The notes beneath the pieces were generated by a model. The model was not told the origin of the DNA, did not search any database, and saw only the letters and a list, made by a program, of their open reading frames with translations. A stretch of DNA of 34,106 nt from Frankia sp. AgB32 (lineage in GTDB: Bacteria > Actinomycetota > Actinomycetes > Frankiales > Frankiaceae), in contig NZ_JALKFX010000018.1 in assembly GCF_023243045.1 (NCBI RefSeq), positions 39,474 through 73,579 on the forward strand, given 5' to 3'. Shown here piece after piece: positions 7,495 through 30,592 of the stretch. The position numbers and the translations under genes were made by a program. The stretch's first letter is position 1; each line of letters opens with the position of its first letter.

Positions 7495-7627
7495 ACAGTC
7501 GTGACAGACCACGTCGATCACCGTGGGCCTGACAGCACAGTTGTCCAGGCGATGGTCGGTGCCAGGAAGCCGCGGTCGGCACGTGGCCGGCCGAGCCGCT
7601 TCCATGCCGACGGCCGAGATGGAGACG

Positions 7628-16313: not shown

Positions 16314-17579
16314 TCAGGCGGAAGCCCAACGGCGAAGGATCACCACCGCGTTGTGACCGCCGAAGCCGAAGGAATTGCTCATCGCGACGTGGATGTCGTG
16401 TTTCTGCGCATGGCAGGCGACGAAGTTCATCTCGGTATCCAGGGGACGGTCGCAGTTGATGGTGGGCGGGGCGATGCCGTCCCGGATCGCCAGGCAGCAG
16501 ACGATCGCCTCGACGGCGCCGCTGGCGCCGATCATGTGTCCGGTCATCGACTTGGTCGAGCTGACCGGGATGCTGGTCGCGTGTGTACCGAGCACCTCGC
16601 GAACCGCGTGGACCTCGCGCTCATCCCCGACCGGTGTGCTCGTGCCGTGCGCGTTGACGTAGTCGAGCGCACGGGGCTCGATCGACGCGTCGTCCAGTGC
16701 CGCGCGCATCGCGGCCTTGGCGCCCGCGCCCTCGGGATGCGGTGACGTCCAGTGGTGGGCGTCGGAGGTGGCGGCGTAGCCGATCAGCTCGGCGAGGATC
16801 GGTACGCCGCGGGCCAGCGCGTGCTCGGCCTCCTCAAGCACCATGATCCCCGCTCCGGCGCTCATCACGAAGCCGTCACGGTCGGCGTCGAACGGCCGGG
16901 AGGCGAGTTCTGGTTCGTCGTTGCGGACCGACAGCGCTCGGGCGTTGCCACTGCCGGCGATCTCACAGCGGGTCACGCAATTGTCCGCTCCGCCGGCGAT
17001 GACGACGTCGGCGAAGCCGAACTGGATCCAGCGGGCGGCCTCGCCGAGCGAATCGGTGCCCGTAGCGCAGGCGGAGCTCTGCGCCCGGCTGGGCCCCCTC
17101 GCGCCGAAACGCATGCTGATCTCGCCCGCCGCGTTGTCAATGGCCCCGGCGACCTGGGCGAACGGACTGATCGCCCGCGGCCCCTTGGCACGCAGTGTGT
17201 CGGCGACGGTGTGGTTGTAGCTGACCGCGCCGTAGCCACTGCCCACGAGGACGCCGACGCGGTCGGCGAGGCCCTCGTCGATCTCCAGCTTGGCGCTCTC
17301 CACCGCCTGGGTGGCGGCGCCCAGCGCGTACAGCGCGTACAGGTCCAGCCGGCGGCTCACCTTCCGCGGAACGTACACGTCCGGGTCGAAGCCGCGAACT
17401 TCGCCGCCGATGCGGGTGTTCAGGTCGGAGACATCGAAACTCCTGATGGCGCCGATGCCGCTGCGGCCGGCCACCATCGCGGCCCAGGTGTCCTCCACTC
17501 CGAGCCCCAGCGGCGTCACCGCCCCCCAGCCCGTGACCACCACGCGCCGCCGCAGCCGCCTCATCGGCTCATGCACCAT
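16314..17579 (-). CDS. Beta-ketoacyl-ACP synthase II-type ketosynthase
   Basis: This 421-residue enzyme has the FabF length and fold. It would catalyse decarboxylative Claisen condensation of an acyl unit with malonyl-ACP. The full catalytic triad is visible: C171 in SSACATGTDSLGEA, H311 in VNAHGTSTPVGD and H348 in GHMIGASGAVE. The C-terminal glycine-rich NSFGFGGHNAVV loop is intact. The ATG at 17579 has GGAG six bases upstream and lies inside the 3' end of the ThDP-enzyme gene (11 bp overlap). It is the last gene of the minus-strand operon, after a FabD-like acyltransferase and the ThDP enzyme. No chain-length-factor partner or acyl carrier protein lies nearby. It may therefore use the ACP of primary fatty acid synthesis or a carrier encoded elsewhere. 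The context argues for a cluster-dedicated KS and not the housekeeping FabF. Confidence 0.88.
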   Translation of the reverse strand: MVHEPMRRLRRRVVVTGWGAVTPLGLGVEDTWAAMVAGRSGIGAIRSFDVSDLNTRIGGEVRGFDPDVYVPRKVSRRLDLYALYALGAATQAVESAKLEIDEGLADRVGVLVGSGYGAVSYNHTVADTLRAKGPRAISPFAQVAGAIDNAAGEISMRFGARGPSRAQSSACATGTDSLGEAARWIQFGFADVVIAGGADNCVTRCEIAGSGNARALSVRNDEPELASRPFDADRDGFVMSAGAGIMVLEEAEHALARGVPILAELIGYAATSDAHHWTSPHPEGAGAKAAMRAALDDASIEPRALDYVNAHGTSTPVGDEREVHAVREVLGTHATSIPVSSTKSMTGHMIGASGAVEAIVCCLAIRDGIAPPTINCDRPLDTEMNFVACHAQKHDIHVAMSNSFGFGGHNAVVILRRWASA

Positions 17580-19257
17580 GTCCACTCCCGGGGAAGTCGC
17601 CGTCGACGTCGGACAGTCCCGGCGGGGCGTCGGCGAGGTCCACCGGCACGAACAGCACCGCCGGCCGTCCCTCGGCGCAGGCCTCGAGCGCCCGGCGTAG
17701 CGCCTCCTCGGCCTGCTCCGGACGTTCGAGGACCGCGTGGGACACGCGCGGGCCGCTGGGGCGAAGAAGCGGCAGCCCGCCGTCGGCGAACACGAACCGA
17801 TCGCCGGCGAGGCCCCGTTGGTCGAGCTGGGACTGCAGCCAGCCGTACCCGCCGTTGCACAGCACCACGTACAGGACACCGATGTGCTCGCTGGCGAGCG
17901 TCTCCAGATCCGCACCGGCGAGGGTGAACGCGCCGTCGCCGACGAAGGCGACGACCTGCCGGCGCGGCGCGGCGAGCGCCACGCCCGCGGCCGCGGCCAC
18001 CCCGAACCCGAGGCTGGTCTGCTCGGACGGGACGACGGAGCCCGCCGGAGCCCGGCACGGCAGGTGCGGAAAGACATAGGACCACATGTCCTGCAGGCCG
18101 TTCTCCTGGACGACTATCCGGTCCGGTGGGAGCAGTCCGTCCATCGTCGCGAGCAGGTGGGCGATCGCCGACGTGCCGGCCAGCACCTCCTTCGCCGCCG
18201 CGTCGATCGCCGTGCGCGTCTCGGCGAGGCGCCGCTGCCAGCCGGCGTCGGGTACGTGGTCGGCCAGCGCGGCGCACCACGCGGCAGCGGCCTGCCCCGC
18301 GTCGGCGAGCACCCGGGGGCCGTCGAACTCGGCGGAGAACTCCTCGGGGGCCAGGTTGACCTGCACCACGCGCGGCGAGGACCACCCGAACGTCGCGGTC
18401 TCCTCCAGGCGGCTGCCCAGGGCCACCACCAGATCCGCCTGCTCCCACAGCGGGGCGGCGGCGGCCGGCAGGTAGAGGCCTGACAGGCCGAGGAAGCGTG
18501 AGTTCGCCTCATCGAGGGTGCCGCGCCCGGAAGCGGTACTGAACATCGCCGCGCCAAGGCGCTCCGCGAGCAGCTCCAGGATCCCCTCGGCATTGCGGTG
18601 GCGGCTGCCGCCACCGGCCAGCAGGACGGGGCGGCGCGAGCCGCGCAGCGCGGCCAACGCGTCGCTGTTCGCGGGCGGCCGGTAGGACGCCGTCGACTCG
18701 ACCGTGATCCTCGGGAGTCGCCCGGCCGGGATGGGTGTGTTGGTCAGCTGGTCCGGCAGTTCGAGGTAGACCGGGCCGGGTACGCCGCCGACCGCCACGG
18801 CCCAGGCCCGGTCCAGCGCGGGCCGGACGCGGTCCGGATGGTCGACCCGGTGCGCCCACTTCACCAGTGGCGCCATGAGGGGCAGCTGCTCCAGTTCCTG
18901 AAAGGCCGCTGACCCCCGGCGTTCGACGGCGGTGCCCGCGGCGAGCACGAGCAGCGGCGCCGCCGAGCGGGCCGCCTCCAGCACACCGGTCAGCACGTTC
19001 GTCGAAGCCGGGCCCTTGCCGACGACGCAGACACCCGGTCGGCCGGACTGGATCGCATAGCCGGTCGCCATGAAGGCCGCGTTGCGCTGATCCCGGCAAA
19101 GCACCATGCGCGGGGAACGGCCCGCCGGGTCGCCGTCCCGCAGGGCCGCGAGCAGCGTCAGGTCGTCGGCTGGCAGCCCGAAGACGGTGTCGGCGCCGGC
19201 CGCGGTGAGGAAGGCGACGACGGCGTGCCAACAGCCGGGATGAGCGGGGGAGCTCAC
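17569..19257 (-). CDS. ThDP-dependent enzyme, acetolactate-synthase-like
   Basis: This 562-residue protein has the three-domain plan of acetolactate synthase and benzoylformate decarboxylase: PYR domain about 8-170, central domain about 195-330, PP domain about 375-545. The ThDP/Mg motif is G440-D441-G442 with N468, in FVGDGAFTLAGADLETLA and VVLCNGGYGWL. The usual activating Glu of the PYR domain (in R-H-E-Q-x-A-A) appears replaced by D56 in CRDQRNAAFMATGYA, which may change reactivity. The family makes acyloin C-C bonds or decarboxylates 2-oxo acids. The GTG start overlaps the acyltransferase stop (GTGA), and the 3' end overlaps the ketosynthase start, so the three are probably co-translated. 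There is no ilvN or ilvC beside it, so branched amino acid synthesis is unlikely. Making an acyloin, ketone or starter unit is inference. Confidence 0.85.
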   Translation of the reverse strand: MSSPAHPGCWHAVVAFLTAAGADTVFGLPADDLTLLAALRDGDPAGRSPRMVLCRDQRNAAFMATGYAIQSGRPGVCVVGKGPASTNVLTGVLEAARSAAPLLVLAAGTAVERRGSAAFQELEQLPLMAPLVKWAHRVDHPDRVRPALDRAWAVAVGGVPGPVYLELPDQLTNTPIPAGRLPRITVESTASYRPPANSDALAALRGSRRPVLLAGGGSRHRNAEGILELLAERLGAAMFSTASGRGTLDEANSRFLGLSGLYLPAAAAPLWEQADLVVALGSRLEETATFGWSSPRVVQVNLAPEEFSAEFDGPRVLADAGQAAAAWCAALADHVPDAGWQRRLAETRTAIDAAAKEVLAGTSAIAHLLATMDGLLPPDRIVVQENGLQDMWSYVFPHLPCRAPAGSVVPSEQTSLGFGVAAAAGVALAAPRRQVVAFVGDGAFTLAGADLETLASEHIGVLYVVLCNGGYGWLQSQLDQRGLAGDRFVFADGGLPLLRPSGPRVSHAVLERPEQAEEALRRALEACAEGRPAVLFVPVDLADAPPGLSDVDGDFPGSGHGA

Positions 19258-20228
19258 CGCACCGTCACCGCCGCAGGCGTCGGCGCCGCCGCGGGTCGCG
19301 CGGCGGGAAGGCGGAAGCCCTTTGTCGGGAAGTCGGCGACCGTTCTGGGGGTGATCATTCCGGTGGGTACGCTCGCGCCGGTGAGCCGGGCGAACATGTT
19401 GCGGGGGCCGACGACGAAGGCCCGGTCCGCTCCGCTCGCCTGGATTCCCGCGGCGACTGTGGACCAGTGGACCGGCGTGGTCCAGCCGTCAAGGAGGTCT
19501 TTCATGATCGCGACTCGGTCGGTCAGCAGGCGCCCGGTGACGTCGGAGATCATGGGAAGCCGCACGTCACGCCAGGTGAGCCGGCTGTACACCTCGGCCT
19601 CGAGCCGCTGCCGCAGGTCGGCCACCATCGGACAGTGCTCCGCCCGGTTCATCAGGTAGAAGGCACGTCCGCCCGCCCGCGTGACCAGCTCCCGGAGGCG
19701 CTCCAGGCCCGACATCGTGCCGGACACGCCGTACACCCGGTTGTCGAGGTAGATCGAGCCCTCGACACGGTGGCCCTCCGCCCGGCACTCCTCGAGCAGA
19801 GCGTCGACGTCGTCGGCCGCCAGCCGATAGAAGAAGAAGCAGCCGAGCGATTCCGTGAGCCCGCCGAAATAGTCCAGCTCCACCCGGGTGCTCTCGCGGA
19901 CCAGCCGCAGCCCGTCCGCGTAGTCGAGCGCCCCGGCGTAGACAGCGCCGACGATGGCCCCGAAACTCTGGCCACCGAACACCACCGGATCGAGGTCGAG
20001 ACAGTCACCGGCCCAGTCCGCGAGGGCGAGGTTCAGCGCCATGAAACCAGCTTCGTAGACCTCCCAGTCGTAGACGTCCGCCCGCTCGTACGCCGCGATC
20101 AGCGAATATCCGAGAATGTCGTCCGCGATCGCGGTCCGCTTGCGGGCGTACGGATTCCCGGTGAAGAAATCGGCGATCGAGGGGAAAGTGGTGGGAACCA
20201 GACCGGGAAAGTAGATCGCATCGGCCAC
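19254..20228 (-). CDS. FabD-like acyl/malonyl transferase
   Basis: This protein of about 324 residues resembles malonyl-CoA:ACP transacylases. The nucleophile elbow is FGGQSFGA with S88, a GQSFG variant of the common GHSxG. The substrate-carboxylate Arg is probably R111 in LVREST. The catalytic His is probably H198 in MNRAEHCPMV, where FabD enzymes usually read F-H-S. LPMISDVTG and WTTPVHWSTV are also FabD-like. The start is a GTG at 20228 with GGAGG five bases upstream. It is the first gene of the coupled AT-ThDP-KS block. The unusual elbow and His loop suggest a specialised acyl donor rather than housekeeping malonyl transfer. This discrete AT resembles those in polyketide or tunicamycin-like pathways, but its substrate cannot be read from sequence. 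Confidence 0.82.
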   Translation of the reverse strand: MADAIYFPGLVPTTFPSIADFFTGNPYARKRTAIADDILGYSLIAAYERADVYDWEVYEAGFMALNLALADWAGDCLDLDPVVFGGQSFGAIVGAVYAGALDYADGLRLVRESTRVELDYFGGLTESLGCFFFYRLAADDVDALLEECRAEGHRVEGSIYLDNRVYGVSGTMSGLERLRELVTRAGGRAFYLMNRAEHCPMVADLRQRLEAEVYSRLTWRDVRLPMISDVTGRLLTDRVAIMKDLLDGWTTPVHWSTVAAGIQASGADRAFVVGPRNMFARLTGASVPTGMITPRTVADFPTKGFRLPAARPAAAPTPAAVTVR

Positions 20229-20261: not shown

Positions 20262-21050
20262 TCACGGCCGGTCGAGTGATTGATGACTGGCTCGTGCGCG
20301 ATTGCCCGGGGCGAGTGCCTCCGCCGGGCGACCGTCGGGACTGTTTCGTTGAATTTCGACGAGCAGGGACGCGGCGAACGGCAACGAGCGCGCGAGTCCG
20401 CCGTACCCCAGACCGAACAGAATCACCCGCGGGTCGTCTTCGGGTGCGAGTGCACCGGCACTGTCGCCGGTGGCGTGGACCGCGAGGTGACCGGACAGCA
20501 GTCCCGGCCGCACCCATTCCGCGCTCTCCAGGGCTGAGAGCGGATAAACGCTCGTCCCCAGCGCACGTTTGATCGGACTTGCTGCGCTGTTCCAGCGGAA
20601 ACGCAGCACGTCGGCATCGAGATGAGCCTCGCCGTCGTAGCATTTCAACCGTAGTGGGAGCGGGTCGGCGGCCAGCAGGAAAAGTGGGCTCGGCGCGGGG
20701 TGCAGAGGCTTCGTACCCGCACGCAGCCGCAGGTCACGGGCATAAAAATTGGCCAGGTCCGCCTGGTCGTTGTCGAGTTCCAACCGGTGCGGATCGTGAT
20801 CGTCCGGCAGTTGGCCAGCGGCCGCTGTCAGGTATGGGTCGGCGCCGGCGCGAAGGATGAGCCACAGCACCCAGGCACCGTCCCCCCGACCAACGCCCGC
20901 GTCCGCGATCGCCTCATTCGGGACGACCCGCCGACCGATCCGGCGCAGCAGTCGAGGAACATCGAGACTGGTTGCGTACTCAATGACAACGTGGTCGGCG
21001 TGAAACGTCCAGGTTGCGTTGCTCCCGACCAGCTTGAATCCCAGATCCAT
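20262..21050 (-). CDS. DUF4429-type protein of unknown function
   Basis: This 262-residue protein looks like the actinobacterial DUF4429 family: an N-terminal strand pattern GSNATWTFHADHVVIEYATS, then a helix and PLRLKCYDGEAHLDADVLRFRWN (nt about 20580-20650). FLPFA-like YGGLARSLPFAASLLVEIQ closes the domain. The C-terminal ~30 residues are low complexity. There is no signal peptide or membrane helix. The ATG at 21050 is preceded by a weak GGGGG stretch. It sits 12 bp after the DUF5708-like gene and 33 bp before the acyltransferase, inside the biosynthetic operon. No DUF4429 function is established. Its folds are PH-like by general resemblance, so a role in binding or regulation is only a guess. 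Confidence 0.65.
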   Translation of the reverse strand: MDLGFKLVGSNATWTFHADHVVIEYATSLDVPRLLRRIGRRVVPNEAIADAGVGRGDGAWVLWLILRAGADPYLTAAAGQLPDDHDPHRLELDNDQADLANFYARDLRLRAGTKPLHPAPSPLFLLAADPLPLRLKCYDGEAHLDADVLRFRWNSAASPIKRALGTSVYPLSALESAEWVRPGLLSGHLAVHATGDSAGALAPEDDPRVILFGLGYGGLARSLPFAASLLVEIQRNSPDGRPAEALAPGNRARASHQSLDRP

Positions 21051-21062
21051 GGCACCCCCGGG

Positions 21063-21266
21063 CTAGCGCCCTTGGCTCTTCTTGGGCGGGAAAACCATTA
21101 CCGTCGTGGTGATCACCAGTTCGATGACGCCGAGCACCACCAGCACGACGCCCACCTTGGTCAGAGTGAACACCGGGGTATGCACCGCGTCCGTGGTGAA
21201 GTAGAGGATCAGGCCCACGACCAGCATGAACGCGCCGGTGATCAGAGACTTGACATTCGCCGACAC
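21063..21266 (-). CDS. Small two-helix membrane protein (DUF5708-like)
   Basis: This 67-residue protein consists mainly of two hydrophobic helices, SLITGAFMLVVGLILYF and VGVVLVVLGVIELVITTTVMVF, linked by a short polar loop with TPVFTLTK. It ends in a basic PPKKSQGR tail. It resembles the DUF5708 group of small actinobacterial membrane proteins. The start is GTG at 21266 with AAGGAGG four bases upstream, which clearly favours it over longer frames. It overlaps the end of the MFS gene by 25 bp. A role as an accessory or immunity component next to the exporter is possible, but nothing in the sequence proves it. Confidence 0.7.
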   Translation of the reverse strand: MSANVKSLITGAFMLVVGLILYFTTDAVHTPVFTLTKVGVVLVVLGVIELVITTTVMVFPPKKSQGR

Positions 21267-22582
21267 GGGGCCTCCTTGGTAACCTCCGCTCCGGACTGAT
21301 CGGAACCCGCGGACGATCGGGACGTGTCGCCCGGAGACGACAGCGAGACCGAGCGCAGGCCGTACAGTGGCCGGATGAAAAACAGTCCGAAAGCGACTCC
21401 AAGATAGCAGCACCCGAGTACGAGGAAGGTCCGGCGACTACCGTTCGCCGAGATCATCCAGGTGAGCAGTGCGACCGCGAGTGGGCTCGGTGCGGACACA
21501 ACCGTGGTGGCGAGGCTCGCGACCCCGCCGAACACGCGCTCGGGTACCCGTTCCTGAAGTACCAGCATGTACAACAGATCGACGGGACTGATCACGAGGC
21601 CGGCGACGAACATTGCCGCCAGCGCGATCGGAACGCTGGTCACCACCGCAAGCGTCAGCACCACCATCGCGAATGACAGATAGGCACCCAGATAGACGCC
21701 CCGCCGGGGCATCCGATGGCCCATGACCCCGTAGGCGATCGTGCCGGCCAGCGACCCCGCCCCGAAGAAACTCACCAGGCCGCCGTACCAGGCCGCTGAT
21801 CCGAGTTCCTCCTCCGCATACATGGTGAGTCCGATCGAGGCGAGTCCGGTGTCCAGCGCCGCGAACACCATGGTGCTGATGACGAGCACCCGCAGCAGCC
21901 GGTCGTACCAGAAGAAACGCAGCGCGACCCGCAGGTGCTCGTAGTACGACTGTCCGTTGGTCGCCCGGGACTCGGCGGTGGCCGTTGGCGCGGCCAGGAG
22001 CAGCCCGAGGATGACGGCGGTCAGGCCGCCGGCGACCGCCTCCAGAAGGACGGTGACGGGGCTGCCGAGAAATCCGACGACGACCCCCGCGAGAATCGGC
22101 CCGAGCAGGCTCGCCAGCGCGTTCATTCCTCGCAGCGTCGCATTCGCGCGCTCGAGGGTCCGCCCGGACTCGCCGGCCACCGCGGGCAGCAGGCCGAAGG
22201 TGGCCACCCGGCCCGGCTCGTCCGCCCCGGCACGCACGAACGCGAGGAACAGCAGCAGCCAGGCGGGCAGGGCATCGGTCAGGTACAGAACGAGCGTGGA
22301 TGCATTGGCCCCGGCACCGATCAACGCCGAACCCAGCCAGGACCGGTGCAGGCCCCAGCGGTCCAGCAACGGCCCCATCAACACTCCGGTGAGGACCGAC
22401 GCGACGATGGAAACCGTGACGACCGCTCCCGTGAAGGCGATGTCCCCGACGGCGTCGAGCACGAACAGCGGATAGGCGACCCCGCCGACACTGTTGCCGA
22501 CGAGGCTGATGCCGAAAGCCGTTCGCAGGACCCCGTACTGGTGTTCCCGGACAGCGCCGAAATCCCGGTGCCTGCCGGGCAT
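21242..22582 (-). CDS. MFS transporter (MFS_3/EntS-like), likely product exporter
   Basis: This 446-residue integral membrane protein has about twelve hydrophobic helices. The conserved loop 2-3 motif A is visible as GPLLDRWGLHR, with a degenerate second copy after the central loop (YGVMGHRMPRRG). The polar region around residues 200-225 is the usual central cytosolic loop. It resembles EntS-like exporters. The ATG at 22582 has GGAGG seven bases upstream. It lies directly downstream of the two lanthipeptide precursor genes. Class III lanthipeptide clusters more often carry ABC transporters, so an MFS exporter here would suit a small, lipidated or hydrophobic product. That reasoning is inference. 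The last ~30 residues are hydrophilic and variable. Confidence 0.87.
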   Translation of the reverse strand: MPGRHRDFGAVREHQYGVLRTAFGISLVGNSVGGVAYPLFVLDAVGDIAFTGAVVTVSIVASVLTGVLMGPLLDRWGLHRSWLGSALIGAGANASTLVLYLTDALPAWLLLFLAFVRAGADEPGRVATFGLLPAVAGESGRTLERANATLRGMNALASLLGPILAGVVVGFLGSPVTVLLEAVAGGLTAVILGLLLAAPTATAESRATNGQSYYEHLRVALRFFWYDRLLRVLVISTMVFAALDTGLASIGLTMYAEEELGSAAWYGGLVSFFGAGSLAGTIAYGVMGHRMPRRGVYLGAYLSFAMVVLTLAVVTSVPIALAAMFVAGLVISPVDLLYMLVLQERVPERVFGGVASLATTVVSAPSPLAVALLTWMISANGSRRTFLVLGCCYLGVAFGLFFIRPLYGLRSVSLSSPGDTSRSSAGSDQSGAEVTKEAPCRRMSSL

Positions 22583-22613
22583 GGCTGGACCTCCGCGGAA
22601 GGCGGGACGGACA

Positions 22614-22640
22614 CGGGCGCGAAAGCGGCGCCCGCGCCCG
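22614..22640 (-). promoter_or_regulatory. GC-rich stem-loop between precursor 1 and the MFS gene
   Basis: CGGGCGCG and CGCGCCCG form a perfect 8-bp stem with an 11-nt loop in the 75 bp between the precursor 1 stop and the transporter start. It may reduce read-through or protect the 3' end of the short precursor mRNA. No T-run follows. Confidence 0.4.
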
Positions 22641-22657
22641 CCCCAGCTCCGGCTTTC

Positions 22658-22741
22658 TCAGCAGTTGTTGCTTACGGTGCTGGATGGCAGCAGGGACTCG
22701 GCGGCGTCGGTCACCAGGTCCTGCAGGTCGAAAACGCTCAT
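22658..22741 (-). CDS. Class III lanthipeptide precursor 1 (27 aa)
   Basis: This tiny gene encodes a 27-residue precursor. The leader begins MSVFDLQDLVTDAAESL and contains the aliphatic/aromatic-D-L-Q motif recognised by class III synthetases (compare LFDLQ in the SapB precursor). The tail is LPSSTVSNNC. It contains S-T-V-S-N-N-C, a minimal S-x-x-S-x-x-C pattern that can become a labionin or, if the Cys is decarboxylated, an avionin. Cys is the final residue, and there is no Lys or Arg anywhere. A purine-rich GAGGGGG lies about ten bases before the ATG. It stands 69 bp downstream of precursor 2, whose last seven residues differ only by Ile for Val. It is too short for routine gene callers, but its similarity to precursor 2 and position beside LanKC make it convincing. 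Confidence 0.9.
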   Translation of the reverse strand: MSVFDLQDLVTDAAESLLPSSTVSNNC

Positions 22742-22775
22742 CGCATTATCACCCCCTCTTCTCGACACCGGGAGG

Positions 22776-22801
22776 CCGATCAGCGCGGCTGCGCTGATCG
22801 G
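22776..22801 (-). promoter_or_regulatory. Hairpin A between the two precursor genes
   Basis: CCGATCAGCGC and GCGCTGATCGG are perfect 11-nt arms around a 4-nt loop. It lies 9 nt downstream of the precursor 2 stop and 34 nt upstream of the precursor 1 start. Each arm shares the core GATCAGC/GCTGATC with hairpin B, so alternative pairings are possible. Confidence 0.75.
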
Positions 22802-22807
22802 ATGGTG

Positions 22808-22830
22808 CGATCAGCAGTTGTTGCTGATCG
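22808..22830 (-). promoter_or_regulatory. Hairpin B across the core codons and stop of precursor 2
   Basis: CGATCAGCA and TGCTGATCG are perfect 9-nt arms with a 5-nt loop. In the mRNA it covers the Ile-Ser-Asn-Asn-Cys codons and the stop of precursor 2. A translating ribosome would melt it. Its 3' arm can instead pair with the 5' arm of hairpin A. Confidence 0.65.
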
Positions 22831-22894
22831 TGCTGCCGAGTAGGGCGGTCTCCGCCGCCTCGGTCGTGAGGCCCTGGAGGTCGAGGACGGTCAT
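22811..22894 (-). CDS. Class III lanthipeptide precursor 2 (27 aa)
   Basis: This second 27-residue precursor has the leader MTVLDLQGLTTEAAETA, with the canonical V-L-D-L-Q class III recognition motif, and the tail LLGSTISNNC. The ring motif S-T-I-S-N-N-C is S-x-x-S-x-x-C with Cys at the C-terminus. Its ATG overlaps the LanKC stop codon (ATGA) with AAGG eight bases upstream. Precursor and synthetase are therefore translationally coupled, which is unusual because precursors are normally made in excess. Precursor 1 aligns end to end without gaps (same length, same leader motif, nearly same core), so the pair arose by duplication. There is no Lys or Arg, so any acyl group must go on the N-terminus freed by leader removal or on a hydroxyl. 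No leader protease gene is seen in the window. Confidence 0.92.
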   Translation of the reverse strand: MTVLDLQGLTTEAAETALLGSTISNNC

Positions 22895-25632
22895 GTTCGC
22901 ACCTTTCGGTCGCTGCTCTGATTCCCGACCACACATCCGGAGGAGTCTGTTGTATCGGATCCTGGTGTGGCCTCGACGGCCGAGGCCTGGCTGGCCGGCG
23001 CGTCTCCGACTGGAGACAGGAAGGGTAGAAACGGCACCGCGGGGTCCAGGACGGACGCTGCCGCCACCAATACACCCGCATTGCCCGTTGCAAAATCCAT
23101 GGACAAGCGGCTACATCCGTCACCGGGAAAGGAGACATGTCCATGGAAGGCGAGCGCGTGCCATCCGAGATTATTCAGCTGGTCTCGCACTCGCGCTGTC
23201 CCCACTATATCGGGAATGGTGTGGGAAAGTCGAGAGAAAGTCGCGACCAGTCCAGCGCGTCCATGAAAGAGGTTCGCGTCCGCGGTGAACGCGCTGCGGC
23301 ACGACCGGCTCAGCGGCGCCAGCGCGGCCAGAACGCGTTCGTCGGTCGTGTGGGCGCGGAGTTCGGCCGCGACGAGTGCGATGCCCGCGCTACCGACGTC
23401 CAGATACGGCAGCGCCCGGAACCCGCCGTTCACCTGGAGAGAGCCGTCCGGCATCGGCACGCACAGGTCGAGGTCGCGGTGCAACGCCCGCACGGCGGCG
23501 TCGAGCCACCGCCGTTCGCCCGTGGCCTCGGACAGGCGCAACAGGAACAGCGCGGGTCCCGACCAGCCGCGCAGCAGGCCTGCGCACGTTCCCGCGTTCC
23601 GGGCCCGGCCAAGATCTCCGGCCGGCCGGTCGACTCCGTGCGGTGCGCCGTCGTCGACCGCGGCCGTGAGCCGCTCGCCGAGGCGCCGCGCCACGCTCGC
23701 GTAACCGGCATAGTCACCGTGGTCCCCGCTTCGGGTGGACAGGTGCAAGAGGTTCAGGCCTATCCCGGCCATCCCTGCGGCCAAGGTGACGTTCGTGGTC
23801 TCCTCGACCAGTTCGGCGCACCGGTCCACCAGCGCCGCCGCCGCGGCGGGCTGACCGAGCAGATCGAGGACGTGAGCGACGCCGTGCGCGCCGTCGAGGA
23901 ACCCCGGGCGGGTCGCGGGCTGGTCTGCCCGCGCCAGCAGCCACCGCTCGTGCGCGGCGTCGAGGTCGAATCCGGCGACCCGCATCGCCCACAGGACGCC
24001 GGCGGCGCCGTGGGCGAACGTCGCGCCGCCGGTACGAAACACCTCGAGGTCCGCGGGGAAGAGAAGGTGCGCGCGCCCCGGGGTCGCGGCCCGCCTGATC
24101 GCCGCCGCCATGGAGCCCAGCGCCGCCGGCCAGTGCAGTCCGCCGCCGCGGGTGACCGGCGGCGTCCGGTCGTGTGGGTCGTCCTGTCCGGCGCCGGGTT
24201 CGGCGACGGGGGGGACCGCGCGCTCGGGGGACCGGCCCGCGACCGCCTGGATGGTCGCCACGAAGCCGGTTGGCAGCTCGAAGTTCCGCTCGGCCGCCGT
24301 GGCGAGATCGTCAAGCTTGTCCGGCGTGAGGCTCAGCAGTGACGTCAGCGGTAGGAACAGCCACAGCCGCAGCACCGCCAGAGCGTGCAGGTCGATGTCG
24401 CGGCCGCGTTTGCCGCTGGCGGTGAAGCCGGCGTGCCCCATCGTCTGCCGGCGGTCCTCGGCGATGTCGAAGGCCGACTCGAAGTCGACGAAGCTGACCA
24501 TGTCGTCCTCGTTGACCAGAATGTTGGCCGGATGCAGGTCGGCGAACACGATGCCGCGGTCGTGCAGGCGGCCGACGAGCGCGCCGACCCGGTCCGCGAG
24601 CGCCAGCGCGCGGGTGGTGTAGGCCTGCCGCTCGGCGACGCTCGGGGCCTCCCGCACCAGGGGGAACTCCCGCGCCTGCCACTGCTGCAGGGAGCCCCCG
24701 GACATCCGCTCCAGGACCAGGTAGCGATGCCCGGCGACGGTTAGCTCAGCCAGCACGCGGGGGACACCGGTGACGCCTGCCAGCCGTCGCAGCGCCCACG
24801 CCTCCGCTGCCATCCTGTCGACGGCGTCCCGGCCGTCGCTGCCCAGCCCGGCGTGCGGGCGCGCCTCCTTCAGCACGACGGCGCGGCCGTCCTCCTCCCG
24901 GACGGCCGCGTAGACCCCACCTCCGTTGGAGAAGTGCATCGCCTCGGTGACGCGGTAGCCCACCAGCGAACCCGCGCGACGACGGGCGTCGATGCTGTTG
25001 GCGAGGACATCGGGAACCTCCGCCCAGCTCGGCGGGGAGAAGATCGGACGCCGCTCGTCCGGCACAAGCGTGCCGTCCGGACGCTCGACCGCGAGCACCC
25101 GCTCGCCGTCTGGCGTCCAGACGTACCGCGCGGTGAAGCCGCCGTAGCGGACATGGAGCGGCCCGTCTCGATAGCGAACGTCGCTGAGGATGTACGGGCC
25201 GTCGGCGCCACCGAGTTCGGCGTCCAGCTGCTCCAGGCTGCGGCGCAACTCCGCGGGGTCCCGCGGGTAGATCGCGACCACCTTGCCGCTGGACGCGCGG
25301 GGCGCGTACTTGAGGTTGTACGCCAACACGAGACCGGGAGTCGCGAGGAACTTGAACGCCACGCCTCGCGTGAAGCAGTGCCGGGCGGCGACCTCCACGG
25401 CGATATGAGCGTTGTCCGGGGTGGCTGAAACGTGGATCTTCCAGCCCTGGGTGGGCGGCGGCGAGGTGACCGGCGGCGTGCACACGATCCAGCCGTCGTG
25501 GTGTGCGCGTGTCCAACCGTGAGGGAGAGCCTCCCGGCCGGGTCGGAACGTCGGTTCGCGTGGCCGCCAGTAGCGGGGATCCTCGAAGAAGATCGGATCC
25601 GCGAGGCTGTACAGCTCGGCTGACGGCCTCAT
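22891..25632 (-). CDS. Class III lanthipeptide synthetase (LanKC)
   Basis: This 913-residue trifunctional enzyme phosphorylates Ser/Thr, eliminates phosphate to give dehydroamino acids and cyclises with Cys. Residues 1-200 form the lyase-type domain, including a Y-N-L-K-Y-A-P-R-x-S-S-G-K segment. Residues ~225-480 are a Ser/Thr-kinase-like domain: Gly-rich loop NGGGVYAA, K255 in VVLKEARPH, catalytic loop FADLHPANILVN with D365 and N370, and metal-binding D383 in VDFESAF. Residues ~500-880 are LanC-like (GAAGVLWAMRVAG, GFLDGAHGVAHVLDLLG, ASGMAG-like helices). The Cys-Cys-His zinc set of true LanC is not apparent, as expected for class III. The ATG at 25632 has AAGGGAG seven bases upstream. The gene follows the GNAT gene by 19 bp and overlaps precursor 2. 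All visible catalytic residues are intact. Confidence 0.95.
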   Translation of the reverse strand: MRPSAELYSLADPIFFEDPRYWRPREPTFRPGREALPHGWTRAHHDGWIVCTPPVTSPPPTQGWKIHVSATPDNAHIAVEVAARHCFTRGVAFKFLATPGLVLAYNLKYAPRASSGKVVAIYPRDPAELRRSLEQLDAELGGADGPYILSDVRYRDGPLHVRYGGFTARYVWTPDGERVLAVERPDGTLVPDERRPIFSPPSWAEVPDVLANSIDARRRAGSLVGYRVTEAMHFSNGGGVYAAVREEDGRAVVLKEARPHAGLGSDGRDAVDRMAAEAWALRRLAGVTGVPRVLAELTVAGHRYLVLERMSGGSLQQWQAREFPLVREAPSVAERQAYTTRALALADRVGALVGRLHDRGIVFADLHPANILVNEDDMVSFVDFESAFDIAEDRRQTMGHAGFTASGKRGRDIDLHALAVLRLWLFLPLTSLLSLTPDKLDDLATAAERNFELPTGFVATIQAVAGRSPERAVPPVAEPGAGQDDPHDRTPPVTRGGGLHWPAALGSMAAAIRRAATPGRAHLLFPADLEVFRTGGATFAHGAAGVLWAMRVAGFDLDAAHERWLLARADQPATRPGFLDGAHGVAHVLDLLGQPAAAAALVDRCAELVEETTNVTLAAGMAGIGLNLLHLSTRSGDHGDYAGYASVARRLGERLTAAVDDGAPHGVDRPAGDLGRARNAGTCAGLLRGWSGPALFLLRLSEATGERRWLDAAVRALHRDLDLCVPMPDGSLQVNGGFRALPYLDVGSAGIALVAAELRAHTTDERVLAALAPLSRSCRSAFTADANLFHGRAGLVATFSRLSHTIPDIVGTARVRDQLNNLGWHALAFHGHVSFPGDGCSRLSMDFATGNAGVLVAAASVLDPAVPFLPFLSPVGDAPASQASAVEATPGSDTTDSSGCVVGNQSSDRKVRT

Positions 25633-25651: not shown

Positions 25652-26317
25652 TCAGTACGGCCGCTCCCGCGACGCCCGGCCGACGAAGTCCCGCAGGGAT
25701 GTCGGTGGATCCTCAGCGAGGTACCTGGCGAAGGCCGCCTGGGCATGCTGCTTGTCTCCGGCTGGCACCAGGTCAGCGACGGGGCTCCGTTTCGCGAAAG
25801 CTCTCGCTGCCTCGACAAATTCGTCGCGAAGGATAGACCAGATGGTTCGATCGTGATATTGGCCGTCGATGAAGTAGTAATCCCTGAGTACTCCCTCCAG
25901 CACGAAGCCACCCTTGGTGAGGATGCTCATCGTGTGCCGGTTGAAGGAGGCCGTGGCGAACTCCACGCGATGCGCGTTCAGCTGATGAAAGAGGTGGTCG
26001 ACCAGGATCGCGAGCGCGTCCGCCCCGCAGCCGCTGTTCCATTTCTCGGGGTCGCCTATGGCGCCGCCGACGGCATACGAACCAGCGCTTCCGACCTTGC
26101 GGTGATTCACCATCCCGACCGGCTCGCCGCTGGTCGCCACTACCATGAAGTAGCGGACGGCGCCGCTGTCGTCCGCCTCTTTGATCGCCGCCGCGGTGAC
26201 CCGCTCGTGCGTGTCACCGGTCAGCGCGCTCGCCGGCGCGAATGGCCTGAGCCAGTCCTCCATCACGTGGTAGTCCTCGGCGGAGGGTGACCGCAGCGAG
26301 CACAGGTTTCTCGACAA
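25652..26317 (-). CDS. GNAT acyltransferase (RimJ/RimL type)
   Basis: This protein of about 221 residues transfers an acyl group from a CoA or carrier donor to an amine. The N-terminal strand is SLRSPSAEDYHVMEDWLRP. YFMVVATSGEPVGMVNHRKVG is the central sheet (nt about 26090-26160). The acceptor/CoA region includes WNSGCGADALAILVDHLF, a variant of the Q/R-x-x-G-x-G/A loop, then LNAHRVEFATASFNRHTMSILTKGGFVLEGVLRDYYFIDG, which is typical for RimJ/RimL proteins. A C-terminal extension of ~50 residues follows. The TTG at 26317 has GGAG at a good distance; a TTG at 26383 gives a longer form. It opens the minus-strand cluster operon just before LanKC. GNATs acylate RiPPs in selidamides, so N-acylation of the lanthipeptide is a reasonable inference, but self-resistance is also possible. 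Confidence 0.75.
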   Translation of the reverse strand: MSRNLCSLRSPSAEDYHVMEDWLRPFAPASALTGDTHERVTAAAIKEADDSGAVRYFMVVATSGEPVGMVNHRKVGSAGSYAVGGAIGDPEKWNSGCGADALAILVDHLFHQLNAHRVEFATASFNRHTMSILTKGGFVLEGVLRDYYFIDGQYHDRTIWSILRDEFVEAARAFAKRSPVADLVPAGDKQHAQAAFARYLAEDPPTSLRDFVGRASRERPY

Positions 26318-26867
26318 TTCTGTCAACTCCCGGCGTGACCTGCACGGTTTGGCTCCAGGTCCGCGATAAAGTTTCTTGCGCAATCAACTGTCGCGGCCGA
26401 ACCTCTCGGGACCAACACGCCTGCGCGTCGGATCGGGCGCCTGTGCACCCCTGATCTCGCGAGAAGATGTTCGAGAGCAGCCTAGCATCCGGGATAGGTG
26501 TGTCAACTACATGGCCGTGGGGCCCGGTGTGTGGGGGCGACGCCCACCCCGCACGTATTTCTTGCACCGCTTACCTGCACCGTGAGAATGAACGGCCTGT
26601 TCGTGAGGTCGCCGTCCTGTCTGGTTGACGTCACCGAGCCCGTCTTCCGGTGGACTGGCCTTCCGCATTGTGTACGCTCGCCCCGTCAGGGCTGTCGCGG
26701 CCACCGGCTGTTCTCGCGTGCAATTCGACGCCCGCCGTGGCTGGGCGATCGTTCTGCCTTATGCATATCCACACGGCTCCATTCGCCCGCGGCGCTCCGC
26801 CGGAACGGTCCGGCACCAGTTTTCGCGATCGCCGTCGCGGGTCAGAAGCGACGGCTGGAGGACGCCA
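26318..26867. other. Divergent control region of the biosynthetic cluster
   Basis: This ~550 bp region separates the two divergent cluster operons and holds no supportable gene. It is less GC-rich than the flanks. A good minus-strand promoter lies at 26479-26506. For the plus strand I found only the GGAGG before 26868; no clear -35/-10 pair was found. Several short ORFs cross it in all frames but none looks coding. No regulator gene lies in it. Confidence 0.6.
26479..26506 (-). promoter_or_regulatory. Sigma-70 (HrdB)-type promoter for the GNAT-LanKC operon
   Basis: On the minus strand TTGACA and TAGGCT are separated by 16 bases, close to the actinobacterial housekeeping consensus (TTGACA, TAGRRT). 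Transcription would start near 26472, leaving a leader of about 155 nt before the TTG at 26317. This is the best promoter-like sequence in the cluster. Confidence 0.6.
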
Positions 26868-27809
26868 ATGACCAGATGGACGACCCTGCTGATGGACGAC
26901 GCGCGGCTACGCGCGCTCCCCGGTCCGCCGGCCGGGGGACCGGCGGAGGACACTGCCGGCCCCGGCCCGACCCCCCTTGAGCTCTACCGACGATGGGAGC
27001 GTCAGCAGTGGTCCGCCGAGGCACTCGATCTCAGCGGCGACCGCCAGGCGTTCGCGGACGAACGCCATCCGGCCGTGATGCGGGACATGCTGCGCAGCGC
27101 GGTCACGACCTTCATCATCGGCGAGTACACCGGCCTCGACATGCTCGGCCCGATCCTCACCGGGTCCCCCGCCGAGGAATACACGCTGTTCCTCGGCACC
27201 CAGACGGCCGACGAGACCCGGCACACCCGCGCGATGTTCCGGATGGGAACCGAGGTCCTCGGGCTGTCGGCGGACCCGAGGACGATGCTTGCGCAGGCCT
27301 GGCGGCTGGCCACCCTCGCCCACCACGAACTCGCCCTCCTTGAGGGTGAGGCCGCGCGGGACGTGCGCGCGCAGCCCATGGACTACGGCCGGTGGCTACG
27401 CGCCGTCGTCCTGTTTCATCTGATCACCGAAGGAGTGCTGGCCCTCGTCGGTCAGCGGGTCCTCGTCCACGCGCTGCGTGAGATCAGGGCATTCGAGGGC
27501 ATCAGGACCGCCTTCGTCGCGATGGGCCGCGACGAGTCCCGCCACGTCGGCTTCGGACTGCACGCGCTGCGCCGCGGCATCCAGGAGGGCCACGCCGAGG
27601 TGATCTACGGCGCCCTTGAGGAGGCCGCGCCGCTCGCGCTGCGGCTCGACACCGAGTTCGACGGCATCGCTGTCGACTTCCGGCAGATGAGCGTGGAGGT
27701 TCTGCGCCGTCATCTCGGCCGGATCGGCGCCTCCCCGGTCTTCGTCTCGCACCTGCTCGACCACTACACCCCCCGTATCACCCCCCGCACTGACCGAGAG
27801 CAGGAGTGA
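26868..27809 (+). CDS. R2-like diiron oxidase (ribonucleotide-reductase beta-like fold)
   Basis: This 313-residue ferritin-like protein has a complete set of six diiron ligands: E86 (IIGEYTGLD), E116 and H119 (ADETRHTRAMF), E188 (LITEGVLAL), E223 and H226 (RDESRHVGFG). The opening LYRRWERQQWSAEALDLSGDR resembles the N-terminus of class I R2 proteins. It has no catalytic R1 partner here and is shorter than most R2 subunits, so it is more like R2-like ligand-binding oxidases or diiron oxygenases used in biosynthesis. The ATG at 26868 has GGAGG six bases upstream. The stop overlaps or nearly touches the ligase-ALDH start. The likely role is two-electron oxidation, hydroxylation or desaturation of an acyl chain or amine, but the substrate is not known. 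Confidence 0.85.
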   Translation: MTRWTTLLMDDARLRALPGPPAGGPAEDTAGPGPTPLELYRRWERQQWSAEALDLSGDRQAFADERHPAVMRDMLRSAVTTFIIGEYTGLDMLGPILTGSPAEEYTLFLGTQTADETRHTRAMFRMGTEVLGLSADPRTMLAQAWRLATLAHHELALLEGEAARDVRAQPMDYGRWLRAVVLFHLITEGVLALVGQRVLVHALREIRAFEGIRTAFVAMGRDESRHVGFGLHALRRGIQEGHAEVIYGALEEAAPLALRLDTEFDGIAVDFRQMSVEVLRRHLGRIGASPVFVSHLLDHYTPRITPRTDREQE

Positions 27810-27811
27810 TC

Positions 27812-30592
27812 GTGAATCAGGACGCCATCCGGATCGTCTTCCAGCACGGAGCCCTGTCCGCGACCGACGTCTCCCGGACCTGCGCGGGTATCACCGACCG
27901 GCTGCTCGCGATGGGACTGCGCGCCGGGGACCGGGTCGGACTGGTCGCCGCGAACTCGGTGGACCATGTGCTGGCCACGCTCAGCCTCATGCACCTGGAC
28001 GTGTCCCTCATCCTGCTCGACGATCAGCAGGCGCCGGCGGAACGGGCGGCGGTACTGCGCCGTGCCCGCGCCCGCTGGCTCCTCCACGACACCGCGGGGG
28101 AGCACGAAAGTGCGGGGGACGCGGCGGGGGAGACGACGAACGGGACGACCCTCGACAACGACGCGGCGGCGCCACGCCGGATCGCGCTCGGGACGCTCGT
28201 CGCCGGTGCGGCGCCCTCGCCGGCGTGCCCCGCCTTCGAGCTGGATCTCGAGCCCTGGTGGACCCGTGACGACGCCCTCATCCTGTCCTCCTCGGGTACC
28301 ACCGGCATCCCGACGATGGTGGTGCGGTCCGGACCGGGTCTGCTCGGCAACATCGAGCGCACCCTGCGTCGGATGGGGTACACCAGCGGCGACGTACTGC
28401 TGCCACTGCTGCCGATGTCCCACCAGTACGGACTGTCGCTCCTCATGGCATGGTGGCTGTCCGGGTGCTGCCTGGTGGTCGTTCCCCATTCCCGTATCGA
28501 CCGCGCGATCGAGGCCGTCACCACGCTGAACGTGACCGTGGTCGACGGCGCCCCGTCGACCTACCACAGCCTGCTGCGCATGATGAAGGGCCGGTCGGTG
28601 GACCGCGCGGCGCTGGCGTCGGTCCGGATGTGGTGCGTGGGCGGAGCTCCGCTCGGCCGCGGCCTGGCGGAGCAGTTCGCCGCGTTCGCCGGCGCCCCGC
28701 TGCTGGACGGCTACGGCAGCACCGAGGCGGGCAACATCGCGCTGGCCTCGCGGGCGCGGCCCCGGCTGTGCGGCGAACCGTTGGACGGCGTCGAGGTCGA
28801 GGTCGTCCGCGAGGACGGCAGGGCGGCCGCCGACGGCGAGATCGGCGAGATCGTGGTCCGCACGCCCGACCTGATGGTCGCCACGATCGATGCGCAGGGA
28901 CGGCTGCGGCGCGTCGACAGCACCGTCCACCGGACCGCGGACATCGGATACCGGACGGCGGCCGGCGACCTCGCGGTCCTCGGTCGCAAAGGCGCGGTGC
29001 ACCGGCACGGCCACACGCTCTACCCGGACGCCTTGGCGCACAAGGCGGAGGCGGCCGGTGCGCCGGTGAAGGTCATCGACGTGCCCGACGAGCGACGAGG
29101 TTGCCGCCTCGTCTTCGTCGTGGCCGACTCCGGCGGGGACGCCCGGCATTGGCGCCAGGCCATCCGACCGCATCTGGCCACCCATGAGCAGCCCAACCAG
29201 GTTCTGGTGGTGCCGTCGCTGCCGCTGAACCGCAACGGGAAGGTGGACACGGCGGCGCTGCGCTCGCTGGTGGCGGCGGAACTCCGTCGCGGCGACGAGG
29301 CGCTCACCGCGCCCCATGCGGTGGAGCGGGCCGCGGTGGAGCCGGCCGGGCCGGCGCAGGCATCCGACGTCTCCTACATCCCACTGCCGGAGCGGGTGTC
29401 GTCGCTGCTCGCCGTCGCACGCTATCTCGAGGAGCACCGTGACGACGTCCTGACGATCCTCACCGAGGTGTCGAACCACCGAACCGCCGTCAGCGAGATC
29501 GACGCGGCCATCGCGACGTTGCGCGGCGCCGCGCTGGAGGTCTCCACCTACCGGCCCTCGCTCGTCGAACGCGCCTCGGTGTTCCTGCCGTCCAACATTC
29601 CGCTGTACGCCTACGCGCTGTTCCTGCTGATCCCGAGCCTCTACAGCGAGCGGGTGACCTTCCGGCCGTCGGGCCAGATCCGGTCCACCCTGGGGCGCCT
29701 GCACGAGCTGTTGGCCAAGGTGCACGAGCTGCCGATCACGGTGTCGAACACCACCCAGCGCGAGTTTGTCTGTGGTTCGGTCGCCGAGTCCGACCTGGTC
29801 GTGTTCACCGGTACCTACGCGAACGCGGAGAAAATCCGTTCGCGACTCGGCAGGGAGCAGCTGTTCATCTTCTTCGGGCAGGGCATCAATCCGTTCATCA
29901 CCGGTCCGGGCGCCGACGTGGATCTCGCCGCCCGCGACGCCGTGGAGATCCGGCTGCTCAACTCCGGGCAGGACTGCTTCGGCCCAGACGTGATCTTCGT
30001 GCACGAATCCATCGGCGACGAGTTCATGACCCTGCTGACCAGGCGGCTCGACGAGCTGAGGGTCGGTCCCTACGACGATCCGACTGCTGACTACGGCGCG
30101 ATGTACTACAGCCAGGCCTTCGGCTTCGCGTTGGAGTACCTCCTGGACAATGCCGAGCACATCGTGCACGGCGGGCAGGTCGACGTGCCTGGGCGCTGGC
30201 TGCAGCCCACGGTGCTCAGCCGCGCCCTCACCGACGTCAAACCGGCCTGTGAGGAGCTGTTCGCCCCGGTCTTCAATGTGCTGCGCTACTCGACGGAGCA
30301 GGAGCTGCATCGCTTCCTCACCTCACCGTTCTTCGAGGAGCGGGCAATGGGTGCGATGGTCTACGGGGACATGCCGGCCACCGTCAAGCTGCTGGAGCGC
30401 CGCCATGAGGTCTGCGTCAACGCCACCCTGCTGCAGACCGAGAACGGGAACGCGCCGATGGGCGGGCGCGGAATGGTCGCCAACTACGTCGCGTTCGGCG
30501 GGCGGCGGATCGCCGAACCGCTGCTCGTCTCGAAGGCGATCGCGGACCATCTGAAGCCGGTGGCCACCCGGAGTCGGCGGGAGACGGCATGA
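27812..30592 (+). CDS. Fused acyl-adenylating enzyme and aldehyde dehydrogenase/acyl reductase
   Basis: This 926-residue protein joins two enzymes. Residues 1-490 form an ANL adenylation domain: SSSGTTG near 160, DGYGSTEAGNIAL as the A5 region, ADIGYRTAAGDLAVLGRKG (A7/A8 hinge) and adenylating K477 in LNRNGKVDTAAL. Residues ~520-920 form an aldehyde-dehydrogenase-fold domain with catalytic C722 in LLNSGQDCFGPDV, EELFAPVFNVLRY and a C-terminal NGNAPMGGRGMVANYV. No carrier domain lies between them. The ALDH part could reduce an activated acid to an aldehyde, or oxidise an aldehyde to the acid that is then activated. The GTG at 27812 has AGGAG five bases upstream; GTG 27806 (overlapping the previous stop) is an alternative. 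The P450 follows with an ATGA overlap, so one transcript is expected. Confidence 0.88.
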   Translation: MNQDAIRIVFQHGALSATDVSRTCAGITDRLLAMGLRAGDRVGLVAANSVDHVLATLSLMHLDVSLILLDDQQAPAERAAVLRRARARWLLHDTAGEHESAGDAAGETTNGTTLDNDAAAPRRIALGTLVAGAAPSPACPAFELDLEPWWTRDDALILSSSGTTGIPTMVVRSGPGLLGNIERTLRRMGYTSGDVLLPLLPMSHQYGLSLLMAWWLSGCCLVVVPHSRIDRAIEAVTTLNVTVVDGAPSTYHSLLRMMKGRSVDRAALASVRMWCVGGAPLGRGLAEQFAAFAGAPLLDGYGSTEAGNIALASRARPRLCGEPLDGVEVEVVREDGRAAADGEIGEIVVRTPDLMVATIDAQGRLRRVDSTVHRTADIGYRTAAGDLAVLGRKGAVHRHGHTLYPDALAHKAEAAGAPVKVIDVPDERRGCRLVFVVADSGGDARHWRQAIRPHLATHEQPNQVLVVPSLPLNRNGKVDTAALRSLVAAELRRGDEALTAPHAVERAAVEPAGPAQASDVSYIPLPERVSSLLAVARYLEEHRDDVLTILTEVSNHRTAVSEIDAAIATLRGAALEVSTYRPSLVERASVFLPSNIPLYAYALFLLIPSLYSERVTFRPSGQIRSTLGRLHELLAKVHELPITVSNTTQREFVCGSVAESDLVVFTGTYANAEKIRSRLGREQLFIFFGQGINPFITGPGADVDLAARDAVEIRLLNSGQDCFGPDVIFVHESIGDEFMTLLTRRLDELRVGPYDDPTADYGAMYYSQAFGFALEYLLDNAEHIVHGGQVDVPGRWLQPTVLSRALTDVKPACEELFAPVFNVLRYSTEQELHRFLTSPFFEERAMGAMVYGDMPATVKLLERRHEVCVNATLLQTENGNAPMGGRGMVANYVAFGGRRIAEPLLVSKAIADHLKPVATRSRRETA

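Follow-up and report, generated by a model that had tools for sequence, protein, structure and literature searches.

The two 27-codon genes A1 and A2 that follow a gene for a class III lanthipeptide synthetase (LanKC) in the DNA analysed here (the window, a stretch of 34,106 nucleotides from Frankia sp. AgB32) are, with some confidence, predicted to encode an N-acylated octapeptide with a single ring, likely a labionin, and with its C-terminal carboxylate kept. The product is probably a variant of the lipolanthines, that is a lipidated minimal class III peptide, and not a member of a new class.

Two precursor genes next to a class III synthetase

A first-pass annotation had proposed two 27-residue class III precursors adjoining LanKC, and both are present on the minus strand between 22658 and 22894 (Table 1). 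The start codon of A2 overlaps the stop codon of LanKC (ATGA), A1 begins 69 bases after A2, and purine-rich, Shine-Dalgarno-like stretches lie 5' of both genes, as judged by eye. The strong hairpin 3' of A1 is possibly a partial terminator or an mRNA stabiliser ahead of the MFS gene. The same annotation had called the precursors unlisted, which is true of A1, as it passes no NCBIfam or Pfam model and scores 19.1 with lanthi_III_a (NCBIfam), just under the cut-off of 22, but not of A2, which passes this model with 25.7. Short ORFs are frequent in GC-rich DNA and 16 of at least 20 residues overlap this 1.1-kb stretch, but that A1 and A2 are such chance ORFs is practically inconceivable and was ruled out by conservation across 13 loci: 35 copies adjoin LanKC in 13/13 loci of the clade described below, with conserved protein sequence and with ribosome-binding stretches in place. 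Judged by this conservation, A1 and A2 are real genes.

Table 1. Features of the precursor locus and its neighbourhood (positions in the window)
Feature	Position	Strand	Description
Precursor A1, MSVFDLQDLVTDAAESLLPSSTVSNNC	22658..22741	(-)	27 aa; ATG at 22741, stop ends 22658; C-terminus S-S-T-V-S-N-N-C
Precursor A2, MTVLDLQGLTTEAAETALLGSTISNNC	22811..22894	(-)	27 aa; ATG at 22894, stop ends 22811; C-terminus G-S-T-I-S-N-N-C
Spacer A2-A1	22742..22810	(-)	10-bp hairpin, z -2.2, 6/200 shuffles fold equally well; includes the ribosome-binding stretch of A1
Hairpin 3' of A1	22590..22657	(-)	strong; -46.9 kcal/mol, z -3.4, 0/200 shuffles
LanKC	22891..25632	(-)	RamC-type lyase, kinase and LanC-like domains (Pfam RamC_N, Pkinase, LANC_like); start codon inferred
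GNAT acyltransferase	25652..26317	(-)	precedes LanKC; start inferred
MFS exporter	21242..22582	(-)	in 13/13 loci
DUF5708 protein	21063..21266	(-)	67 aa, hydrophobic, two membrane stretches by eye
DUF4429 protein	20262..21050	(-)	domain match
FabD-fold acyltransferase (VinK-like)	19254..20228	(-)	best solved relatives 5czc/5czd
Thiamine-pyrophosphate (TPP) enzyme	17569..19257	(-)	acetolactate-synthase/2-oxoacid-decarboxylase family
FabF-type beta-ketoacyl synthase	16314..17552	(-)	start inferred
Di-iron protein	26814..27809	(+)	related to R2-like ligand-binding oxidase; start inferred
AMP-ligase fused to aldehyde-dehydrogenase (ALDH) domain	27806..30592	(+)	in 13/13 loci
Cytochrome P450	30589..31917	(+)	
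FAD/NAD(P)-binding protein	32041..33780	(+)	PF13454; contig ends 326 bases further on

Precursors conserved in one LanKC clade

With 908 bits on NF038151 (NCBIfam, cut-off 575) the synthetase belongs to class III. Residues K66, K256, E278, D366, N371 and D384, which we take to be its kinase and lyase positions, are invariant in 11/11 aligned sequences (ten clade members and L105, a locus described below), and the positions in the LanC-like domain that presumably correspond to the zinc-ligand cysteines are not Cys in the alignment of the window's LanKC, as in class III. A scan of contigs yielded six loci with a 50-62% identical LanKC, in Amycolatopsis jejuensis, Prauserella salsuginis, Prauserella alba, Saccharopolyspora endophytica, S. 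flava and S. ipomoeae, and among 390 genomes of the A. jejuensis family the six were found again together with six others (860-1165 bits), ahead of a next match at 714 bits. In the family of the window genome itself, with 35 genomes, three encode a LanKC (1e-40), of which the window's alone belongs to this group. In a tree of 79 LanKC sequences, built by a quick method with SH-aLRT values only and no bootstrap, one more locus having been dropped as too short, the 13 loci form one clade (SH-aLRT 97); its sister is L105 (99), and within it the window pairs with A. jejuensis (99). Since the window genome is of another family than its LanKC neighbours, the tree suggests that the cluster was transferred from a Pseudonocardiaceae-like source. 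No clade member was seen on plasmids, either among the best 25 of 36 LanKC matches (at most 43% identical) or among the best 15 listed of 52 GNAT matches, all of which are below 60%.

The clade loci (the window and 12 genomes of the Amycolatopsis family) hold 35 precursors with 22 distinct sequences, of which 31 have 27 residues, three have 26 and one has 29, the four of deviating length being those of L170. Ser21, Ser24 and Cys27, forming S-x-x-S-x-x-C, are present in 35/35, and Leu6, Gln7, Ala13 and Glu15 are equally unvaried, the fourth L170 paralogue (ending CFNA) having been trimmed for this count of its three residues after Cys; it is the exception to the rule that the precursor ends at Cys (34/35). 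A leader motif [ILVF]-x-L-Q and a core with Ser/Thr and Cys are likewise found in all 35. When all pairs from different genomes are added up for the 31 copies of 27 codons, synonymous difference is larger than non-synonymous difference (pS 0.39, pN 0.22), although single pairs may reverse this, as do A1 and the second of the copies in A. jejuensis (pS 0.23, pN 0.27).

The lack of such conservation next to homologous LanKC genes had been named in the first-pass annotation as grounds for giving up its proposal; the precursors are in fact conserved in 13/13 loci of one LanKC clade, and the sequences also support its description of class III precursors with a core of at most ten residues and a single ring motif in the last seven. 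The tail SNNC, to which it drew attention, turned out to be a local spelling found in 10/35 precursors; the last eight residues occur in 17 different strings, and what is conserved is S-x-x-S-x-x-C. The tree contains 66 further LanKC loci. In 43 of them a D-L-Q-type pattern, which overlooks some precursors, those of L113 among them, picks out a precursor-like ORF within 1.5 kb, and L105 alone has a precursor of at most 30 residues that ends in Cys. L105 aside, the precursor-like ORFs of these loci have 30 to 56 residues, and 55/62 carry at least two ring motifs.

Gene content of the clusters

On the minus strand the genes are transcribed in the order GNAT, LanKC, A2, A1, MFS, DUF5708, DUF4429, FabD-fold acyltransferase, TPP enzyme and ketosynthase, and the genes for the di-iron protein, the AMP-ligase/ALDH fusion, the P450 and the FAD/NAD(P)-binding protein run divergently on the plus strand. 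By tblastn with hits above 60 bits, run on the window and on stretches of 20 to 22.6 kb from the other loci (so that absence near a locus end is no proof), a GNAT gene ahead of LanKC, LanKC itself, MFS, ketosynthase and AMP-ligase/ALDH are found in 13/13 loci, the VinK-like acyltransferase and the di-iron protein in 12, the FAD protein in 11, DUF4429 and the TPP enzyme in nine each, DUF5708 in eight, an enoyl reductase in seven and the P450 in six; the order and orientation of the genes vary between genera. A small ORF similar to DUF5708 additionally occurs in L055-L057, and DUF4429 genes also lie close to LanKCs that do not belong to the clade (L106, L107, L108). In the di-iron protein, E104, E134xxH137, E206 and E241xxH244 are invariant in 7/7 sequences. 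Four of the 13 loci (L166-L169) have an AMP-ligase domain shortened in frame, and the TPP and DUF4429 genes were not found in them; L170 lacks the acyltransferase and di-iron genes and has the ligase and ALDH halves in different frames. From the shortened ligase domains and the separated halves, the ALDH part of the fusion may be the essential one. In the FAD gene of the window (32000-32170) homology starts upstream of the ATG at 32041, and a Gly-rich motif and the first dozen residues apparently lie in another frame, as seen by eye; this frame break would seem to be a sequencing error or a lesion.

The genus-mate G005 (L037, 8577-9661) has, in order and within ~1.1 kb, pieces that match the end of the ketosynthase (86%), DUF4429/MFS (74%) and the end of LanKC (78%), and the precursor stretch is gone. 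By their sequence, these pieces are a decayed copy of the cluster, which ties the genes to one ancestral cluster.

Proposed pathway and the fate of the C-terminal cysteine

From the genes, their conservation and synteny and the spacing of the motif, we infer the following route to the product. LanKC would bind the [LF]-D-L-Q leader and would phosphorylate and eliminate Ser21 and Ser24, perhaps also Thr22; Cys27 would then add to the residues so dehydrated, the likeliest ring being a labionin that takes in the final seven residues. Cleavage near residue 19/20, by a protease for which no gene was seen in the cluster, would remove the leader and leave x-S-T-x-S-x-x-C. To the N-terminus exposed in this way GNAT would couple an acyl chain, which may be made or modified by the ketosynthase, the VinK-like acyltransferase, the AMP-ligase/ALDH, the di-iron oxidase and the TPP enzyme together with housekeeping fatty-acid enzymes. 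The finished product would be exported by the MFS protein. Unlike in lipolanthines, the C-terminal Cys is predicted to retain its carboxylate, because no Cys decarboxylase is linked to the cluster.

Avi(Me)Cys requires a decarboxylase of the LanD type, MicKC and MicD being the enzymes described for microvionin (PMC10373908). Proteins of the flavin Cys-decarboxylase family (PF02441) are matched 40 times in the genomes of the 12 relatives (15 times in six of them and 25 times in six more, 2 to 7 per genome), never inside the cluster locus; the match nearest to LanKC, a 304-aa frame with 40.5 bits in G746, lies ~18 kb away, and the rest are on other contigs or more than 500 kb distant. The window genome has five matches, none on the window's contig, which stops at the right end of the window, so that a decarboxylase beyond it is possible. 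When 10 of the 45 matches were run against NCBIfam, all stayed under the cut-off for CypD-type RiPP decarboxylases: A. jejuensis and P. salsuginis have one CoaBC-like protein and one partial protein without a name each, and those of the window genome are UbiX-like, CoaBC-like or weak. The control for PF02441, with 14 genomes and no characterised lipolanthine cluster as positive control, shows only that the model detects flavoproteins. A linked decarboxylase was also rejected on the wider set of PF02441 searches, covering the window's own genome, the 12 relatives, four others and G260, and a short protein motif run over 25 stretches (window included, L166-L171 excluded) gave none in the cluster loci. 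With no decarboxylase linked, it is simpler to predict a labionin whose carboxylate is retained. The related motif S-x2-S-x3-C is described as giving either lanthionine or labionin, depending on the class III peptide (PMC7268733).

It is unlikely, in our view, that the product is a true lipolanthine, i.e. an acylated octapeptide whose Cys is decarboxylated to avionin by an unlinked flavoprotein or by another oxidoreductase of the cluster. The spacing of the core and the C-terminal Cys, kept in all precursors but one, fit avionin exactly, and unlinked PF02441 proteins are encoded in the window genome and in each of the 12 relatives; against this stand the cluster loci of all relatives, which have no PF02441 match, the NCBIfam results on ten of the 45 matches, and the fourth paralogue of L170 with its three residues past Cys.

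Evidence for acylation

The first-pass annotation had overlooked that genes for GNAT, a FabF-type ketosynthase, a VinK-like acyltransferase and an AMP-ligase/ALDH travel with the precursors, and because of this company the product of A1 and A2 is probably acylated. GNATs are described as lipidating lanthipeptides, including microvionin with its N-terminal lipid, and as having an acyl-CoA loop with the consensus Q/R-x-x-G-x-G/A (PMC13060382), from which the loop of the present GNAT departs with Trp in the first place (8/8 sequences). Its nearest solved relatives are acetyltransferases of small substrates, e.g. of the spermidine and RimJ/RimL types; its AlphaFold model is weak (mean pLDDT 63), and no reading rests on it. 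Neither Lys nor Arg occurs within the last eight residues of the 35 precursors, and the selidamide pattern, in which a GNAT acylates a Lys or Orn side chain, thus does not apply.

A profile search with the acyltransferase gave 180 bits for 5czc/5czd, the first of which we take to be VinK, and 65 for the next sequence family. VinK passes a dipeptidyl starter from one carrier protein to another (PMC11284099). No acyl carrier protein turned up when the window was scanned by motif, and the chain must therefore use a carrier from elsewhere. The window cluster also has no enoyl reductase, although other loci do; the best copy in the window genome, probably a housekeeping enzyme, is encoded on a different contig at ~5 kb from an ORF that by eye looks like a ferrochelatase. 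Lipolanthines with guanidino fatty acids use an Arg-derived starter supplied by a TPP decarboxylase of the 5-guanidino-2-oxopentanoate type; the TPP enzyme of the window scores 187 bits on the 5-guanidino-2-oxopentanoate decarboxylase model and 222 on another, both far under the cut-offs. Its PDB matches include BbmA/CsmA, on which a literature search returned nothing relevant.

The deviating GNAT loop, the lack of a carrier and an enoyl reductase in the window, and the sister locus L105, which has no chain genes on its 26-kb contig, leave some room for a plain, non-acylated minimal class III lanthipeptide, with GNAT acetylating or protecting the peptide and the fatty-chain genes making a separate small molecule. 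The solved relatives of GNAT, acting on small substrates, would be in line with this, as would L105 with 27-residue precursors, a GNAT and a FAD protein and with no ketosynthase, acyltransferase or ligase on its contig. Such a product is nevertheless quite improbable, considering that ketosynthase and ligase/ALDH have been kept with the precursors in every clade locus despite the changes of order and orientation between genera. That the peptide is a carrier or a signal, e.g. a scaffold for the assembly of a small molecule, is hardly credible: its very short core, the several near-identical copies per locus and the many neighbouring oxidoreductases could be accommodated, but the kinase and lyase positions of LanKC are conserved and the ring motif is invariant throughout the family. 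The acylated, single-ring octapeptide is the preferred reading.

Related loci

L105 (562-6449, G076) encodes three 27-residue precursors, two ending SSVSVDC and one SGISSDC, with a LanKC, a GNAT and a FAD protein; no fatty-chain genes were found on its 26-kb contig, and the precursors lie less than 1 kb from the contig end. L113 (2810-17968, G260, a one-contig genome of 3.6 Mb) has a PKS, a GNAT 34.7% identical over 202 residues to that of the window, a LanKC with 36% identity, two precursors and NRPS genes. The precursors, of 31 and 32 residues, carry S-x-x-S-x-x-C followed by Gly or Gly-Gly (GSSVSYNCG and NSSASWNCGG). Both L113 and the window combine a GNAT next to LanKC with acyl-assembly genes, which in L113 are a modular PKS and NRPS, and the only PF02441 match in G260 is a 410-aa frame ~1.5 Mb from the locus. 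From its gene content, L113 looks like a second locus that makes an acylated class III peptide and has no decarboxylase linked to it; taken with the window clade, the combination of GNAT, LanKC and acyl assembly without a linked decarboxylase would occur twice. When L113-L125 and the plasmid loci L126 and L127 were considered as lipolanthine references, L113 alone had a window-like GNAT by its LanKC. The class III loci with DUF4429 genes, L106-L108, were set aside as another kind; in L106 there are, besides, ORFs that by eye resemble glycosyltransferases, and one precursor-like ORF contains the stretch NSGLSLVGCS.

Comparison with known class III peptides

The ring-motif end had been regarded in the earlier annotation as uncharacterised, but its spacing is already known from the lipolanthine nocaviogua, which is crosslinked at positions 2, 5 and 8 of eight residues (PMC10435860). 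Nocaviogua A is given there as MGFA-Ala1-Avi2-Val3-Ser4-Avi5-Asx6-Gly7-Avi8, with a C-C bond between 2 and 5, a thioether between 5 and 8 and the chain on Ala1 (PMC10435860). If its Avi residues are read as Ser, Ser and Cys, the resulting A-S-V-S-S-N/D-G-C aligns without gaps with G-S-T-V-S-N-N-C, so that the two share the eight-residue spacing x-S-x-x-S-x-x-C, the chain of nocaviogua being on the N-terminus as described. With the lipolanthines in general (microvionin, nocavionin, goadvionins and nocaviogua, as taken from published descriptions) the family has in common a class III ring made by LanKC, a short peptide with S-x-x-S-x-x-C ending in Cys, acyl transfer by a GNAT, and genes in the cluster for an acyltransferase and for what would be acyl-chain enzymes. 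It differs from them in that no MicD-type flavin Cys decarboxylase is found in the cluster, at 12/12 relatives' loci or on the window's own contig up to its end, so that no avionin is predicted, and in that the chain would be made by a few non-modular enzymes (ketosynthase, VinK-like acyltransferase, ligase/ALDH and di-iron oxidase).

Peptides of the SapB/AmfS/RamS type resemble the family in their D-L-Q leader, their LanKC and the position of the precursor directly after LanKC, but the window family has 27 residues, one ring motif and an MFS exporter, whereas SapB uses an ABC exporter. In labyrinthopeptin and NAI-112 an S-x-x-S-x(n)-C motif is converted to labionin; the motif is of the same type, and their cores are larger and have no acyl chain. 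The lipoavitides are N-lipidated class III lanthipeptides, and the title of a paper cited with them names non-modular fatty acid synthases (PMC13060382); as N-terminally acylated ribosomal peptides they are likened to the present family by description only.

The conserved loci of the clade probably make lipopeptides and are spread over Amycolatopsis, Prauserella, Saccharopolyspora, six more genomes of their family and a single genome from a different family. A large lanthipeptide survey is described as having dropped ORFs of fewer than 30 residues (Walker et al., PMC7268733). Peptides of the A1/A2 type are missed by length-filtered searches, yet they are visible in part to annotation, as several of the relatives' copies pass NCBIfam or Pfam models, including SapB_AmfS or RamS. 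Whether all this amounts to a lineage of lipid-bearing octapeptides, in which labionin replaces avionin, the lipolanthine architecture is kept without the Cys decarboxylase, the chain is made by distinct non-modular enzymes and the precursors are too short for published mining, seems to us evenly balanced. If the labionin prediction is true, class III peptides would offer a case of lipidation uncoupled from Cys decarboxylation, and this LanKC, with a 27-residue substrate and one ring, would be a natural minimal system for labionin formation by a metal-free cyclase. The mechanism of labionin formation has been called unclear (PMC10604976).

Other features of the window

Two further regions of the window stand apart from the cluster. 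At 7523-9858 a gene with a GmrSD_N domain is followed by an AAA/DUF3696 ATPase gene, possibly as a defence pair, and at 12168-14762 an Hsp70-like domain is fused to a periplasmic-binding-protein-like domain.
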